A stretch of DNA of 64,000 bases, from NCBI RefSeq assembly GCF_000174755.1, contig NZ_ACLQ01000035.1, forward strand, positions 186,001-250,000. Direction: 5' to 3'. The stretch is from Capnocytophaga gingivalis ATCC 33624 (lineage in GTDB: Bacteria > Bacteroidota > Bacteroidia > Flavobacteriales > Flavobacteriaceae). The stretch's first letter is position 1. Every line of letters starts with the position of its first letter. The notes under the pieces are model-generated. The model was not told where the DNA came from. It searched no databases and was given only the letters and a program-made list of their open reading frames with translations. A program made the translations under genes and the position numbers. Shown here piece after piece: positions 408-63,389 of the stretch.

Positions 408-435
408 TTAATTGTTAATCGTTAATTGTCAATGA
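408..435. repeat. Heptad-period array (4 units)
   Basis: Four tandem 7-nt units, TTAATTG, TTAATCG, TTAATTG and TCAATGA, lie between pyrC and the reductase gene. The same period recurs at many other intergenic sites in this window. A looser related stretch with CATTA words follows at 452-480, over the pyrC stop codon. Confidence 0.75.
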
Positions 436-468
436 TAGCCATATGAAGAGAACTAATCATTACTGGCA

Positions 469-1806
469 TTAATCATTAAATAGCACTCTTTGTCCTTTTT
501 CCTCCAGATGGAGCGTTCCCTTCTCATAGGCCAAATGCCCATTGACAAAGGTATATGCCACTTTGTAATCAAAGGTAGTTCCCTCCAAAGGAGACCAGCC
601 ACATTTGTAAAGGATGTTATCCTTAGAAACTTGCCAAGGAGTGTGCTCTGATACACAGGCGATATCGGCATAATAGCCTTCTCGGAGAAACCCTCTCTCT
701 TGTATTCTAAAAAGTATGGCAGGATTGTGACACATTTTCTCCACCAATCGCTCCAAAGGAATTCCCCTTTTGGCAAACATGGTCAGGGCTGCCACTAAGG
801 CATGTTGTACTAAGGGAGCTCCCGAAGGGATTTTCTGGTATTCCTTCTGTCCCTTCTCCTCCAGTGTATGGGGAGCGTGGTCAGTGGCAATCACATCGAT
901 ACGGTTGTCTAAGAGAGCTTGCCAGATTCCTTCTCGATCCTGCTCGGTCTTTACCGCTGGATTCCATTTGATCAGCACTCCTTTTTCTTGGTAATCCTTA
1001 TCGGTGAACCACAAGTGATGGATACATGCCTCTGCGGTGATTTTCTTCTGAGAGAGCGGCAAGGTATTGTCCAACAGCTCAGTTTCCTTGGCTGTAGAGA
1101 GATGAAAAACATGAAATCTTGCTCCTGTCTGCCGAGCCAAAGCAATCGCTCGTGAGGAGGAGAGATAACAAGCCTCTGCACTGCGAATCAGAGGGTGACA
1201 TGCTACAGGAATCTCCGGTCCATAAAGGGATAAATAATGAGCTAAGTTCTGACGAATGGTCTGCTCGTCCTCACAGTGAGCAGCAATCAGGGTAGATACA
1301 TTTCTAAATATCGTTTCGATTGTTTTTTCATTATCCACTAACATATTCCCCGTGGAAGAACCTAAAAATAGTTTTACTCCTGCAGTATTTTTAGGATTAA
1401 TATGCTTGAGTTCTTCTATATTATCATTCGTACCCCCCAAGAGAAAGGAGAAGTTGGCCAAAGAAGTACGAGCTGCGATGGCAAACTTGTCCTCCAAAGC
1501 AGCAATAGTAGTTGCCTGAGGAATTGTATTGGGTTGGTCAAAGAAAGTGGTTGTCCCTCCAGCCACGGCAGCGGCGCTTTCTGTGGCAATAGTAGCCTTG
1601 TGAGTAAGACCTGGCTCTCGGAAATGTACTTGATCATCAATAACTCCTGGAAGCACAAGCATTCCCTCCAGATCGATCACCCGATGGGCTTCCTTAGCAG
1701 ATATATCCGTCGCTATTTTTGCAATACGCTCGTTTTCAATAAGTAAGTCTGCTTCTTGAATACGATTATCTGAGATAAGTTTGCCATTTTTTAGCAGTGT
1801 TTTCAT
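469..1806 (-). CDS. pyrC: Dihydroorotase (class I)
   Basis: Catalyses reversible cyclisation of carbamoyl aspartate to dihydroorotate, the third step of pyrimidine synthesis, in the cytoplasm. The 445-residue product has the amidohydrolase layout: metal motif D-D-Q-V-H-F-R-E-P-G at residues 57-66, the substrate-binding FDQPNT segment near 83-88, GVKLFLGSSTG with the lysine expected to be carboxylated near 146, the AHCEDE histidine, and the DHAPHT signature near 309. The first histidine of the usual HxH pair is glutamine (Q59); from memory this is the normal Bacteroidota form (DDQVHFREPG), so I do not read it as a defect. I chose the ATG at 1804-1806 (MKTLLKNG); an ATG immediately before it (1807-1809) is the alternative. 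Confidence 0.93.
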   Translation of the reverse strand: MKTLLKNGKLISDNRIQEADLLIENERIAKIATDISAKEAHRVIDLEGMLVLPGVIDDQVHFREPGLTHKATIATESAAAVAGGTTTFFDQPNTIPQATTIAALEDKFAIAARTSLANFSFLLGGTNDNIEELKHINPKNTAGVKLFLGSSTGNMLVDNEKTIETIFRNVSTLIAAHCEDEQTIRQNLAHYLSLYGPEIPVACHPLIRSAEACYLSSSRAIALARQTGARFHVFHLSTAKETELLDNTLPLSQKKITAEACIHHLWFTDKDYQEKGVLIKWNPAVKTEQDREGIWQALLDNRIDVIATDHAPHTLEEKGQKEYQKIPSGAPLVQHALVAALTMFAKRGIPLERLVEKMCHNPAILFRIQERGFLREGYYADIACVSEHTPWQVSKDNILYKCGWSPLEGTTFDYKVAYTFVNGHLAYEKGTLHLEEKGQRVLFND

Positions 1807-1851
1807 CATTGTCAGGATTTTAACCGTTATCCGACAGAGACAACGGCGATG

Positions 1852-1859
1852 CAAAGATA
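1852..1859 (-). promoter_or_regulatory. Bacteroidota -7 element for pyrC
   Basis: TATCTTTG on the minus strand, 46 nt upstream of the chosen pyrC start, matches TAnnTTTG. No convincing TTG is seen at the -33 position. A second such element on the plus strand at 1934-1941 makes this a divergent promoter region. Confidence 0.65.
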
Positions 1860-1896
1860 CATATTAAAGTGAGAAAAGAAAAGAGAAAAACAAAAA

Positions 1897-1931
1897 ATTA
1901 ATCATTTTTTATCACTCATTAATCATTATTT
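1897..1931. repeat. Heptad-period array (5 units)
   Basis: Five 7-nt units, ATTAATC, ATTTTTT, ATCACTC, ATTAATC and ATTATTT, sit between the two divergent promoters and cover the region where the -33 element of the plus-strand gene would lie. Confidence 0.7.
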
Positions 1932-1933
1932 CG

Positions 1934-1941
1934 TATCTTTG
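1934..1941 (+). promoter_or_regulatory. Bacteroidota -7 element for the HD phosphohydrolase gene
   Basis: TATCTTTG matches TAnnTTTG and lies 73 nt before the ATG. The -33 position falls inside the heptad array and has no TTG. Confidence 0.65.
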
Positions 1942-2014
1942 CACTTAAAAAGGCAACTTAAGCGCCTCTCTATTACCCCTGACACCCAACAAAGAGAGGG
2001 TTAAAACTTAAAAA

Positions 2015-61153: not shown

Positions 61154-61169
61154 GTGAAGTCAAGGTATA

Positions 61170-61197
61170 AAAAGAGCGGCTACACAGCCGCTCTTTT
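61170..61197 (-). terminator. Terminator of gyrB
   Basis: 12-bp perfect stem AAAAGAGCGGCT / AGCCGCTCTTTT with an ACAC loop and a T-run on the minus strand, directly after the gyrB stop. Confidence 0.93.
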
Positions 61198-61210
61198 ACA
61201 TTTAGGTATA

Positions 61211-63181
61211 TTAGGCGTCTATATTGGCGTATTTGGCATTTTTCTCAATAAACTCACGACGAGGTGGTACATCGTCTCCCATAAGCATAGAGAAGATTCT
61301 ATCGGCTTCTACTGCGTTTTCTATAGTAACCTTTCTTAGAGTTCTGTGGCGAGGATCCATAGTGGTATCTGCCAATTGTTCAGCATTCATCTCTCCCAAA
61401 CCTTTGTAACGCTGTACAGCTACCTTAGTCTGTGCTTGCTCATAGAACTCTTTGGTAATAGCATCACGTTCTTCATCTGACCAAGCGTATTGTTCCTTTT
61501 TGCCTTGCTTAAGCAGGTAAAGGGGTGGGGTGGCTATATATACATGCCCCTCCTCTATCAGCTCTCGCATATAGCGGAAGAAGAAAGTAAGGATCAAGGT
61601 AGCGATATGTGAACCATCCACATCGGCATCGCTCATGATGATAATCTTGTGATATCTTAGCTTACTAATATTAAGCGCCTTAGCATCCTCTTCTGTTCCT
61701 ATAGTTACTCCAAGGGCGGTATAGATATTCTTAATTTCTTCATTCTCAAAGACCCTATGCTGCATGGCTTTTTCCACATTGAGGATCTTACCTCGAAGGG
61801 GGAGAATAGCTTGAAACTTCTGATCGCGACCTTGCTTGGCAGTACCTCCCGCTGAATCCCCTTCGACTAAGAAGAGCTCGCAGTTCTCAGGATTTTTATC
61901 TTGGCAATCAGCCAATTTGTTTGGCAGACCTGCCCCTCCCATAGGAGATTTTCGCTGTACGGCTTCGCGAGCTTTCTTAGCTGCCAAGCGGGCTTGAGCG
62001 GCAAGAATTACCTTATTTACAATCGTCTTGGCATCTTCAGGGTTTTCTTCCAAATAGCTCTCGAGCATATCGGAAACAGCTTGGGAAACAGCCGCAGTCA
62101 CCTCTCGATTACCAAGTTTTGTCTTAGTCTGTCCCTCGAACTGGGGTTCCGCTACCTTGACCGAGATAATAGCAGTAAGCCCTTCACGGAAGTCATCTCC
62201 GGAGATCTCCAAGGGGTTTTTCTTGTCCTTACTGGCTTTCTCAAGCAAGCCTGACTTATCTGCATAGTTCTTCAGTGTACGAGTAAGCCCCATACGGAAG
62301 CCCTGAAGGTGGGTACCTCCCTCATGGGTATTGATATTATTGACATACGAATGGAGATTCTCATTGAAGGAATCATTATAAATCATAGCTACTTCCACAG
62401 GAATTTCGTTCTTTTCCCCTTCCATAGCAATGATTTTTTTGATAATGGGTGTACGATTACCATCCAAATATTGGATAAACTCTTCTAACCCTTTTTCTGA
62501 GTAGAATGTTTGGGAGATGGGCGCTCCTTTTTCATCCTGATGGCGCAAATCGGTTAGGGTGATGTGGATACCTTTGTTCAAGAAAGCCAACTCTCGGATA
62601 CGATTGGCCAAGATATCATAATTGAACTCCACTGTCTGTTGGAATATTTCCGTATCAGGCAGAAAAGTAACCTTAGTACCACGCTTCTCTGTTTTTCCTT
62701 TTTCCTTTACTTGATAGAGAGCTATCCCTCGCTCATATTCTTGTTCCCAGATTTTTCCATCACGGAATACGGTAGCCGTAAGGTGAGTAGAAAGGGCATC
62801 CACGACGGACACCCCTACACCATGCAGACCACCAGATACTTTATAGGAACCTTTGTCAAACTTTCCTCCAGCTCCTATCTTGGTCATAACCACCTCAAGG
62901 GCAGATACTCCTTCTTTCTTGTGTATATCCACAGGAATACCACGCCCATTATCCTCCACTGTTACTGAGTTATCTGGATTGATTACTACAGAAATAGTGT
63001 CGCAATAGCCAGCAAGTGCCTCATCAATGGAGTTGTCAAGCACCTCATATACTAAGTGGTGTAACCCCCTTACCCCTACATCGCCTATATACATGGATGG
63101 GCGCACACGTACGTGCTCCATCCCTTCCAAGGACTGAATATTATCTGCCGAATATTTGTTTGGGTCTAATTGTTCACTCAT
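61211..63181 (-). CDS. gyrB: DNA gyrase subunit B
   Basis: The ATPase subunit of gyrase, 656 residues. The GHKL ATPase domain (about 1-230) has [25 protein letters not shown] and [15 protein letters not shown]; the transducer follows, and the TOPRIM domain at about 430-560 has [14 protein letters not shown] and [10 protein letters not shown]. The C-terminal [13 protein letters not shown] completes the type IIA signature. The length matches gyrB without the long insert of enterobacterial forms. The ATG at 63179-63181 gives [11 protein letters not shown]; an in-frame longer version would cross the promoter. Confidence 0.95.
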
Positions 63182-63205
63182 TATGTTTGTTACTAAAAAT
63201 TCGGA

Positions 63206-63236
63206 CAAAGATACAATGTTTTTTTTTCTCTCACAA
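63206..63236 (-). promoter_or_regulatory. Promoter for gyrB
   Basis: Minus-strand TATCTTTG (63206-63213), 20-nt spacer, TTG at 63234-63236; 24 nt upstream of the ATG. Confidence 0.75.
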
Positions 63237-63283
63237 ATATTTTCAAGGAAAAAATTAACGGCAAAGGATGGGAAAAGCGGGCA

Positions 63284-63323
63284 AGACCTCACAGCTGAAT
63301 CTATGAGGAATAGAGGTCTGTGA
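63284..63323. other. Alternative-pairing inverted repeats upstream of gyrB
   Basis: AGACCTC (63284-63290) pairs with GAGGTCT (63313-63319), while the overlapping TCACAG (63289-63294) pairs with CTGTGA (63318-63323). The two helices exclude each other. The site lies upstream of the gyrB promoter and of the metallopeptidase promoter, so a DNA-level or RNA-level role is unclear. Confidence 0.35.
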
Positions 63324-63354
63324 ATAGTCCACCCTTGAGGAGATAAGAGAATGA

Positions 63355-63389
63355 ATCATTAACGATTAATCATTTGTCATTAATGATTA
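63355..63389. repeat. Heptad-period array (5 units) over a promoter
   Basis: Units ATCATTA, ACGATTA, ATCATTT, GTCATTA and ATGATTA. The -33 TTG of the metallopeptidase promoter lies within it. Confidence 0.8.

Follow-up and report, generated by a model that had tools for sequence, protein, structure and literature searches.

Intergenic DNA of Capnocytophaga gingivalis ATCC 33624 carries numerous short tandem arrays with a period of seven nucleotides. The sequence of these units is more constrained than it first appears, since the units share a four-letter core, MAYT (C or A, A, C or T, T; ARTK on the opposite, G-rich strand), followed by three looser bases, and the arrays tend to be oriented, the G-rich strand pointing inward from the edges of the intergenic gaps. 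The arrays were first noticed in a stretch of 64,000 nucleotides (the window), corresponding to positions 186,001–250,000 of contig C3 in a draft genome of 2.66 Mb and 37 contigs, for which a preliminary description listed thirteen such stretches of differing unit sequence and proposed that their length or period, and not their sequence, is what is made or selected.

A seven-nucleotide period in intergenic DNA

The host DNA analysed amounts to 1,825,834 b of the 2.66 Mb (the window and 100 other pieces; five very small contigs consist only of N) and comprises 979 intergenic stretches totalling 179,739 b. Genes were taken as the longest open reading frames (ORFs) of at least 240 nt, called in segments no longer than 20 kb; their 3' ends are therefore exact and their 5' ends inexact. 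Scanning the intergenic DNA at different lags, with dinucleotide shuffles as the null (10 per lag), yielded 228 arrays at lag 7 where 8.5 are expected, as compared to 12 against 10.6 at lag 6 and 30 against 9.0 at lag 8; under a stricter score lag 7 retains 148 arrays versus 1.3 expected, whereas lag 6 keeps a single array and lag 8 keeps 7. The multiples at lags 14 and 21 follow lag 7. In the intergenic DNA of the window alone (4,605 b), lag 7 gives 7 arrays where 0.33 are expected and none of 100 shuffles exceeds 2; lag 6 gives one array and lag 8 none. Indeed, the enrichment of lag 7 over lags 6 and 8 that the preliminary description had made the genome-wide test of its claim is what the scan returned, and we have confirmed that the 7-nt periodic arrays of intergenic DNA are real and not a product of chance.

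When each of the thirteen listed stretches is scored at lag 7 against 500 local dinucleotide shuffles, ten surpass every shuffle (those starting at 408, 3280, 4012, 4091, 28926, 28974, 35416, 40556, 48473 and 63355), whereas three are weak, their scores being reached by 18 (1897), 4 (28298) and 2 (9935) of the 500. These three are what speaks for chance in AT-rich DNA. In addition to the lag counts, runs of at least three MAYT units at period 7 number 217 in the host against 12.8 expected, while at periods 4–6 and 9–13 they fall under expectation and period 8 gives 20 versus 11.2. Clearly, the shuffle tests on the stretches, the window and the genome, together with the periods of the MAYT runs, rule this explanation out, and we give it practically no weight. 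Coding DNA of the host also has 54 lag-7 arrays versus 18–21 at lags 5, 8 and 10. Its lag-21 count (113) lies above those at lags 18 (70) and 24 (66), as though coding sequence accepted 7-nt steps in sets of three.

A shared core and a species dialect

The 148 host arrays that pass the stricter score fall into 38 unit classes. Aligned with strand and phase left free, they give the consensus M (A.33, C.67), A (.96), Y (C.40, T.60), T (.98), after which three looser bases lean towards A, A and T. With at least 60% of units matching MAYT taken as a fit, 121 of the 148 arrays fit the core, against a mean of 44 in column-permuted arrays (maximum 57 of 20 permutations), and the alignment score is 4.9 versus 2.7 after permutation. 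Taking one consensus unit per array the score is 6.5, versus 3.5 for random intergenic heptamers (maximum 3.8 of 30). Among the 27 arrays that do not fit, about 11 read as switching strand midway, two have GATT units, five lack any fitting unit and the rest fit poorly. Within arrays, variation is low at the A, Y and T positions (0.07, 0.09 and 0.05), equal at M and the second loose base (0.14 and 0.13), and higher at the first and third loose bases (0.21 and 0.17). The arrays contain 12.7% G and 13.9% C. In the window, half or more of the phased units match VAYT in twelve of the thirteen stretches when the best of 14 registers is taken (7-nt flank included), a count that carries no null for the single stretch; the sole exception is the stretch at 9935.

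The same core is found in the sister species, G001, in 50 arrays from 54 fetched loci, with a score of 4.76 versus 2.72 ± 0.11 and 37 of the 50 arrays fitting. These loci were picked from array-rich segments of the host, and for this reason the array density of G001 is not comparable with that of the host. For the comparison the host set was reduced to 147 arrays by removing a duplicate, and 118 of these fit when whole units are counted. The bases after the core differ between the two species: the commonest triplets are AAT, AAC, CTT, GAT and CAA in the host, and AAC, AAT, TGT, AGT and GGT in G001 (chi-square p 9e-41, the units within one array not being independent). Host and sister species thus share the MAYT core with three looser bases, and the core fit in both rules out a period free of any sequence constraint. 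The proposal of the preliminary description therefore holds in part: the letters of the units do differ between the thirteen stretches, the period is fixed at 7 in the host and sampled relatives, and orthologous gaps can swap units without a change of period; however, units follow MAYT and three free bases in the host and G001, and remoter relatives have other cores.

Arrays in other lineages

Among 80 loci, mostly from Flavobacteriaceae, lag 7 gives 55 arrays versus 11.8 expected, with 6 at lag 6 and 23 at lag 8. At 19 gyrB loci of the genus we count 9 lag-7 arrays where 0.8 are expected, and at 10 gyrB loci from other genera of the family none, where 0.6 are expected; 14 loci from the family or order contain no array. 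Samples of two cyanobacterial plasmids have 4 lag-7 arrays each (0.0 and 0.2 expected). Two samples of 50 kb from a Bernardetia replicon have 7 (1.2 expected), and one of the same size from Prevotella sp. oral taxon 299 has none. Similarity searches with heptamer queries returned nothing on plasmids, perhaps as the filter masks repeats.

Among the 24 possible letter orders, MAYT ranks first in the host with 121 arrays, followed by TYAM (106), YAMT (103) and TMAY (98). In genus relatives (24 arrays) it ranks sixth, MYTA leading with 11, and by eye G011, G012, G014 and G017 have CCTA, CTRA, CTTA or TCAG cores. In Flavobacteriaceae (48 arrays) it ranks fifth; a free fit there gives an A-Y-T core (3.25 versus 2.82 ± 0.08), and TYA fits more arrays than AYT (32 versus 24). 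On the two cyanobacterial plasmids MAYT ranks first, yet fits just 6 of 25 arrays. A single core common to all bacteria is, as stated, ruled out by these ranks.

The arrays of the window and their orthologous gaps

The thirteen stretches are the following, the fraction in brackets being the shuffles that reach the score; TAnnTTTG, to which the −7 boxes refer, is a promoter element of Bacteroidota.

408–435, minus strand: heptad array CATTGAC AATTAAC GATTAAC AATTAAG (score 13.5; 0/500), between the left-hand gene and the dihydroorotase gene 469–1854(−)
1897–1931, plus strand: weak heptad array (18/500), stopping two bases short of a −7 promoter-like box, TATCTTTG, at 1934
3280–3307, plus strand: self-complementary array CATTAAT/GATTAAT (0/500), upstream of folE and preceding the box TATTTTTG at 3316
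4012–4046, minus strand: heptad array of AGTTTTT units, which read AACTAAA on the minus strand (0/500), immediately 3' of the folE stop (folE ends at 4010)
4091–4125, plus strand: heptad array AACTCAA (0/500), ending at TTG 4126 of a UvrD/PcrA-like gene
9935–9962, minus strand: weak, non-fitting stretch (2/500), 2 of 6 units fitting the core
28298–28332, minus strand: weak AACTCAA-type array (4/500), inside the 3' end of ORF 28294–28926(−) and just ahead of the start of 26126–28294(−)
28926–28953, plus strand: heptad array ATGATTA, GATTAAT register (score 17; 0/500), upstream of ORF 28294–28926(−)
28974–28994, plus strand: short heptad array (score 10; 0/500), reaching into the stop codon of ORF 28992–29651(−)
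35416–35443, plus strand: heptad array AACTAAG (0/500), including the stop codon of a MATE-transporter gene (34052–35428, plus)
40556–40590, minus strand: heptad array CATTGGT CATTTGT CATTAAA (0/500), before a −7 box, TAATTTTG, at 40551(−)
48473–48507, plus strand: heptad array CACTCTT/CACTTTT (0/500), at the stop codon of ORF 48502–49275(−), AGTGAAG in the sense of that gene
63355–63389, plus strand: heptad array CATTAAC GATTAAT CATTTGT CATTAAT GATTAAA (0/500), before a −7 box, TATCTTTG, at 63397

The stretches had been taken as intergenic, which does not apply to 28298–28332. Comparison with G001 and with two further relatives, G004 and G018, evidences different fates. The array at 408–435 is missing from the orthologous gap in G004 and G001, and that at 35416–35443 from the gap in G004 and G018; that at 63355–63389 has about three units in G001. 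In the gap 4010–4125 the two arrays are identical to G001 at 67 of 68 positions and the remainder at 42 of 47, the array at 4091–4125 being shorter in G004. In the gap 40521–40659 the array is identical at 30 of 31 positions and the rest at 99 of 107, and the array is mostly retained in G004. TTG 4126 is, as read from the sequence, the sole candidate start (ATG, GTG or TTG) that lies downstream of the in-frame stop and ahead of the conserved N-terminus in the UvrD/PcrA-like gene, and is retained in G001 and G004, so that this gene appears to start with TTG directly after the AACTCAA array. At the folE promoter the host has TTAATSA units, whereas G001 and G004 have TTCACTA (CACTATT-type) units with inverted arms, and in all three the arrays end before the same −7 box. 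The G004 gap (L243) also has a GC-richer spacer of about 65–80 nt between its two heptad arrays, which may be a separate small repeat element. FolE itself (3348–4010) has its best named matches in Flavobacteriaceae at 71–77% identity, records of near relatives being possibly omitted from the listing. For gyrB, matches to Bacteroides, Phocaeicola and Prevotella lie at about 65%.

Turnover and regional density

The comparison of orthologous junctions suggested in the preliminary description was carried out at the species level: 90 gaps (from the window and four host pieces) were sought in G001 and 33 junctions were found. Arrays are present in both species at 11 gaps, in the host only at 5, in G001 only at 4 and in neither at 13 (one-sided association p 0.011). 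Two of the 11 shared gaps hold alignable, near-identical copies (4010–4125 and 40521–40659), three have the same unit class but are not alignable by eye, and six have a different class. Clearly, presence and length of the arrays vary between close relatives, and units are exchanged at orthologous gaps.

Array density is strongly uneven in the host, ranging from 33 to 287 per Mb among contigs of at least 80 kb. C22 (287/Mb) and C15 (246/Mb) are dense, and C19, C3, C16 and C7 are sparse (33–52/Mb). The dense contigs carry core genes of cell wall and division such as murD, rsmH and ftsX and are thus no obvious island; pieces from C22 and C15 alike map to a single G001 contig. Overlapping loci of G004 (about 163 kb) and G018 (about 117 kb) have 5 and 3 arrays, and as these loci mostly resemble the sparse contig C3, where about 8 and 6 arrays are expected, they show no clear drop. 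On the main contig of G004, 7 of the 19 distinct places matching window arrays, among the matches listed, lie at 587–679 kb (4% of the contig), adjoining or overlapping the 540–657 kb stretch orthologous to C22. The G004 region orthologous to the dense one of the host is about 0.9 Mb from dnaA at 1,516 kb; a replication terminus is not clearly the cause of the dense region.

The G004 places were counted without matches to a dispersed, non-heptad element at 37530–37600 of the window, which has three more partial copies in the host pieces examined and many matches in G004 at 565–647 kb. Dispersed palindromes resembling repetitive extragenic palindromic (REP) elements also occur in host contigs (e.g. 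L020:18928 and L032:13918), with 14-mers such as GGGCGAATTGCAAT and GTAGAGACGCAATT present in 9–15 host gaps each. Some of these palindromes carry GTAG/CTAC feet. A search of the host genome for a Y1 (IS200-like) transposase gave no match.

Orientation relative to gene edges

The 217 MAYT runs were placed in their gaps and, after dropping 32 that are self-complementary, 185 were retained. In 147 of these, read on the plus strand, ARTK lies in the left half of the gap or MAYT in the right half. The result is the same for each of the four gene arrangements, apart from divergent gaps, where 8 of 23 ARTK runs fall in the fourth fifth. The polarity is also seen without reference to the core, as the G-rich strand lies left and the C-rich strand right in 121 of 147 host cases, in 24 of 31 from Flavobacteriaceae (p 0.003) and in 14 of 19 from genus relatives (p 0.06). 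It is absent on the cyanobacterial plasmids (12 of 25), and non-array intergenic DNA has no such contrast.

Between neighbouring runs, ARTK is followed by MAYT 27 times, the reverse order occurs twice and the same strand is repeated nine times. Such inverted pairs could act as RNA or DNA hairpins, either terminating transcription or protecting mRNA 3' ends, and the folE gap, self-complementary in the host and with inverted arms of different sequence in G001 and G004, would agree with this. However, in a set of 35 pairs the two arms of one gap match each other no more closely than arms from different gaps (p 0.18 and 0.19), and some arrays that follow stop codons are themselves followed by a separate terminator-like hairpin. 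As left and right arms do not covary, selection for hairpins is rejected and this role is improbable.

Within 10 nt after stop codons, 49 runs read ARTK in the sense of the gene and 4 read MAYT. In 54 of 65 cases the stop codon falls on one of just two of the seven lattice phases; at that phase the units have a TAR or TGA of their own, and the array may simply supply the stop. ARTG units are oriented there (51 versus 10) and ARTT units are not (9 versus 8), which fits a stop-codon filter. A more radical possibility is that convergent arrays are scars of DNA-end healing, in which both 3' break ends in a gap would be extended by G-strand heptads and joined, abutting the last essential bases of the genes. 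The inward G-strand polarity, the independence of the arms, the phase of the stop codons, joints spaced by exactly 6 in 6 of the 35 pairs and the convergent pairs also reported from Xanthomonas (PMC4692102) are in line with it. Nevertheless, the lattice phase is equally expected if arrays supply their own stops, the 8 ARTK runs of divergent gaps contradict the rule, the polarity is absent on cyanobacterial plasmids and no enzyme was found. To our knowledge no enzyme is known for such healing, which we regard as very improbable.

Upstream of genes, AAYT arrays, which contain no ATG or GTG on either strand, are oriented as well (33 versus 13, some runs being possibly counted twice as AATT is self-complementary), so that a start-codon filter is insufficient as the sole cause of polarity. 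An in-frame start codon lies within 12 nt of 19 of 25 gene-facing AACT arrays and 30 of 51 CATT arrays, ORF starts being uncertain. Same-strand −7 boxes come after a MAYT run, within 60 nt, in 42 cases; boxes on the opposite strand at the other side of the run number 15, and about 28 are expected for one side. Of the CATT or AATT arrays with a same-strand −7 box within 25 nt, 24 of 25 face a gene, as compared to 79 of 136 for all such arrays.

The placement before promoters is consistent with the main rival to the origin proposed below, namely that arrays are sites at which a DNA-binding protein would load at 7-bp pitch, reading MAYT with polarity, by analogy with the omega (ParB) protein of plasmid pSM19035 on WATCACW. 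The core positions are near-invariant across arrays while the spacer bases are loose, CACTWAT, a rotation of WATCACW, fits MAYTNNN, and a conserved array precedes the box at 40551; omega binds direct and inverted heptads overlapping promoters (PMC9499535). On the other hand, some arrays follow stop codons, others sit at start codons or within operons, and units are exchanged at orthologous promoters. An omega-family protein is rejected for the host genome, with no match to Omega_Repress (PF07764) at E ≤ 1, other possible binders not having been searched. We consider such a protein possible, although we lean against it.

A proposed origin by slippage

From the period, core, polarity and turnover observed we infer that the arrays may be intergenic heptad satellites grown by slippage and seeding one another, their position and orientation filtered by gene signals, a reading to which we give a tentative probability of about 0.4. 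Unequal recombination or slippage in 7-nt steps would lengthen and shorten the arrays; realignment would need the 4-nt core of adjacent units, and because of this units with a broken core would cease to expand, while the remaining three bases would drift and be homogenised into a species dialect. New arrays would be seeded from existing ones, and the uneven density between contigs is what such seeding, if local, would produce. Stop codons, start sites and promoters would filter the surviving sites and orientations, and a few arrays might have become part of these signals.

Several observations weigh against this proposal. Slippage alone predicts neither a core shared across unit families nor polarity, and the orientation of AAYT arrays is not fully explained by a start-codon filter. 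Convergent pairs are described in Xanthomonas (PMC4692102), although the GGGANTN unit, in our own reading, holds no stop codon. Clustering of the variation in three adjacent columns is modest (z 3.5 in the host, 2.4 in the genus, 0.2 in Flavobacteriaceae and 0.0 in cyanobacteria), and the array counts of G004 and G018 do not support a recent burst. Furthermore, the arrays in the gaps 4010–4125 and 40521–40659 are conserved at least like their surroundings, which hints at a function.

A wider and rather unlikely reading is that bacterial heptad arrays are made or read by some polar machinery that is sequence-specific and advances in 7-nt steps, which would be a DNA-binding protein of heptad pitch or else an activity that extends ends; each lineage would keep a short core and change its three-letter dialect, with arrays running inward from gene edges, G-rich strand leading, in Bacteroidota as in Xanthomonas.

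Comparison with known heptanucleotide repeats

The preference for seven as the long repeat unit of many bacteria is usually ascribed to polymerase slippage. Plain slippage predicts neither a hidden core nor a species dialect nor a polarity bound to gene edges; these properties can be tested, and a curiosity of repeat counts thereby becomes a question about a mechanism with sequence preference. Heptameric STRR repeats are known from Calothrix. Heptanucleotides are reported as the most abundant class of long simple sequence repeats (SSRs) in most genomes studied, with slippage tied to polymerase contact length proposed (Mrazek and colleagues 2007, via PMC4679880 and PMC4692102), and heptamer-derived satellites are known in other bacteria (PMC6749651). 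The arrays described here resemble this class in the over-representation of intergenic period 7 and in a presence and length that differ between close relatives over the 33 gaps; they are unlike it in core and polarity, neither of which is mentioned in the available descriptions.

The Xanthomonas (GGGANTN)n and Nostoc GGGGAYT repeats are intergenic in about nine tenths of cases, with 2 to 26 units (PMC4692102, 2015). In Xanthomonas two sites are convergent in 70 and 75 cases, repeats lie closer to the 5' neighbouring ORF, those of similar length occur at different genes in two related species, and no genome region is preferred (PMC4692102). Fixed and free heptamer positions, with other letters, and convergent pairs are common to both systems. 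In contrast, the core here is the AT-rich MAYT, with no G-tracts or GGGA core that could form G-quadruplexes, orientation is tied to gap edges and density is strongly regional.

In pSM19035 the parS heptads are bound by omega/ParB, are plasmid-borne, occupy six sites and have their own cognate protein (PMC9499535). The 7-bp pitch, direct and inverted copies, promoter overlap and a compatible consensus are shared with our arrays, for which, unlike parS, no omega-family protein was found in the host genome.

Direct repeats of TAACTGA, intergenic, are reported from Beggiatoaceae, Cyanobacteria and five Bacteroidetes (PMC4679880, 2015), so that the view that no equivalent class had been described in Bacteroidota was not quite right. 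In one genome they lie mostly just before start codons, and indels between two Cyanothece strains are mostly in 7-nt increments (PMC4679880). Rotated to AACTGAT, this heptamer fits MAYTNNN; in the host it occurs as lone units inside arrays and is not among the 38 consensus unit classes. That report follows one exact heptamer, unlike the degenerate family of many units with a common core described here. Among the open-licence papers searched, no listed title or abstract concerns heptamer arrays in Prevotella or a MAYT-like core. Intergenic heptanucleotide repeats are thus already known, and what is new here is their core, their dialect and their edge-bound polarity.

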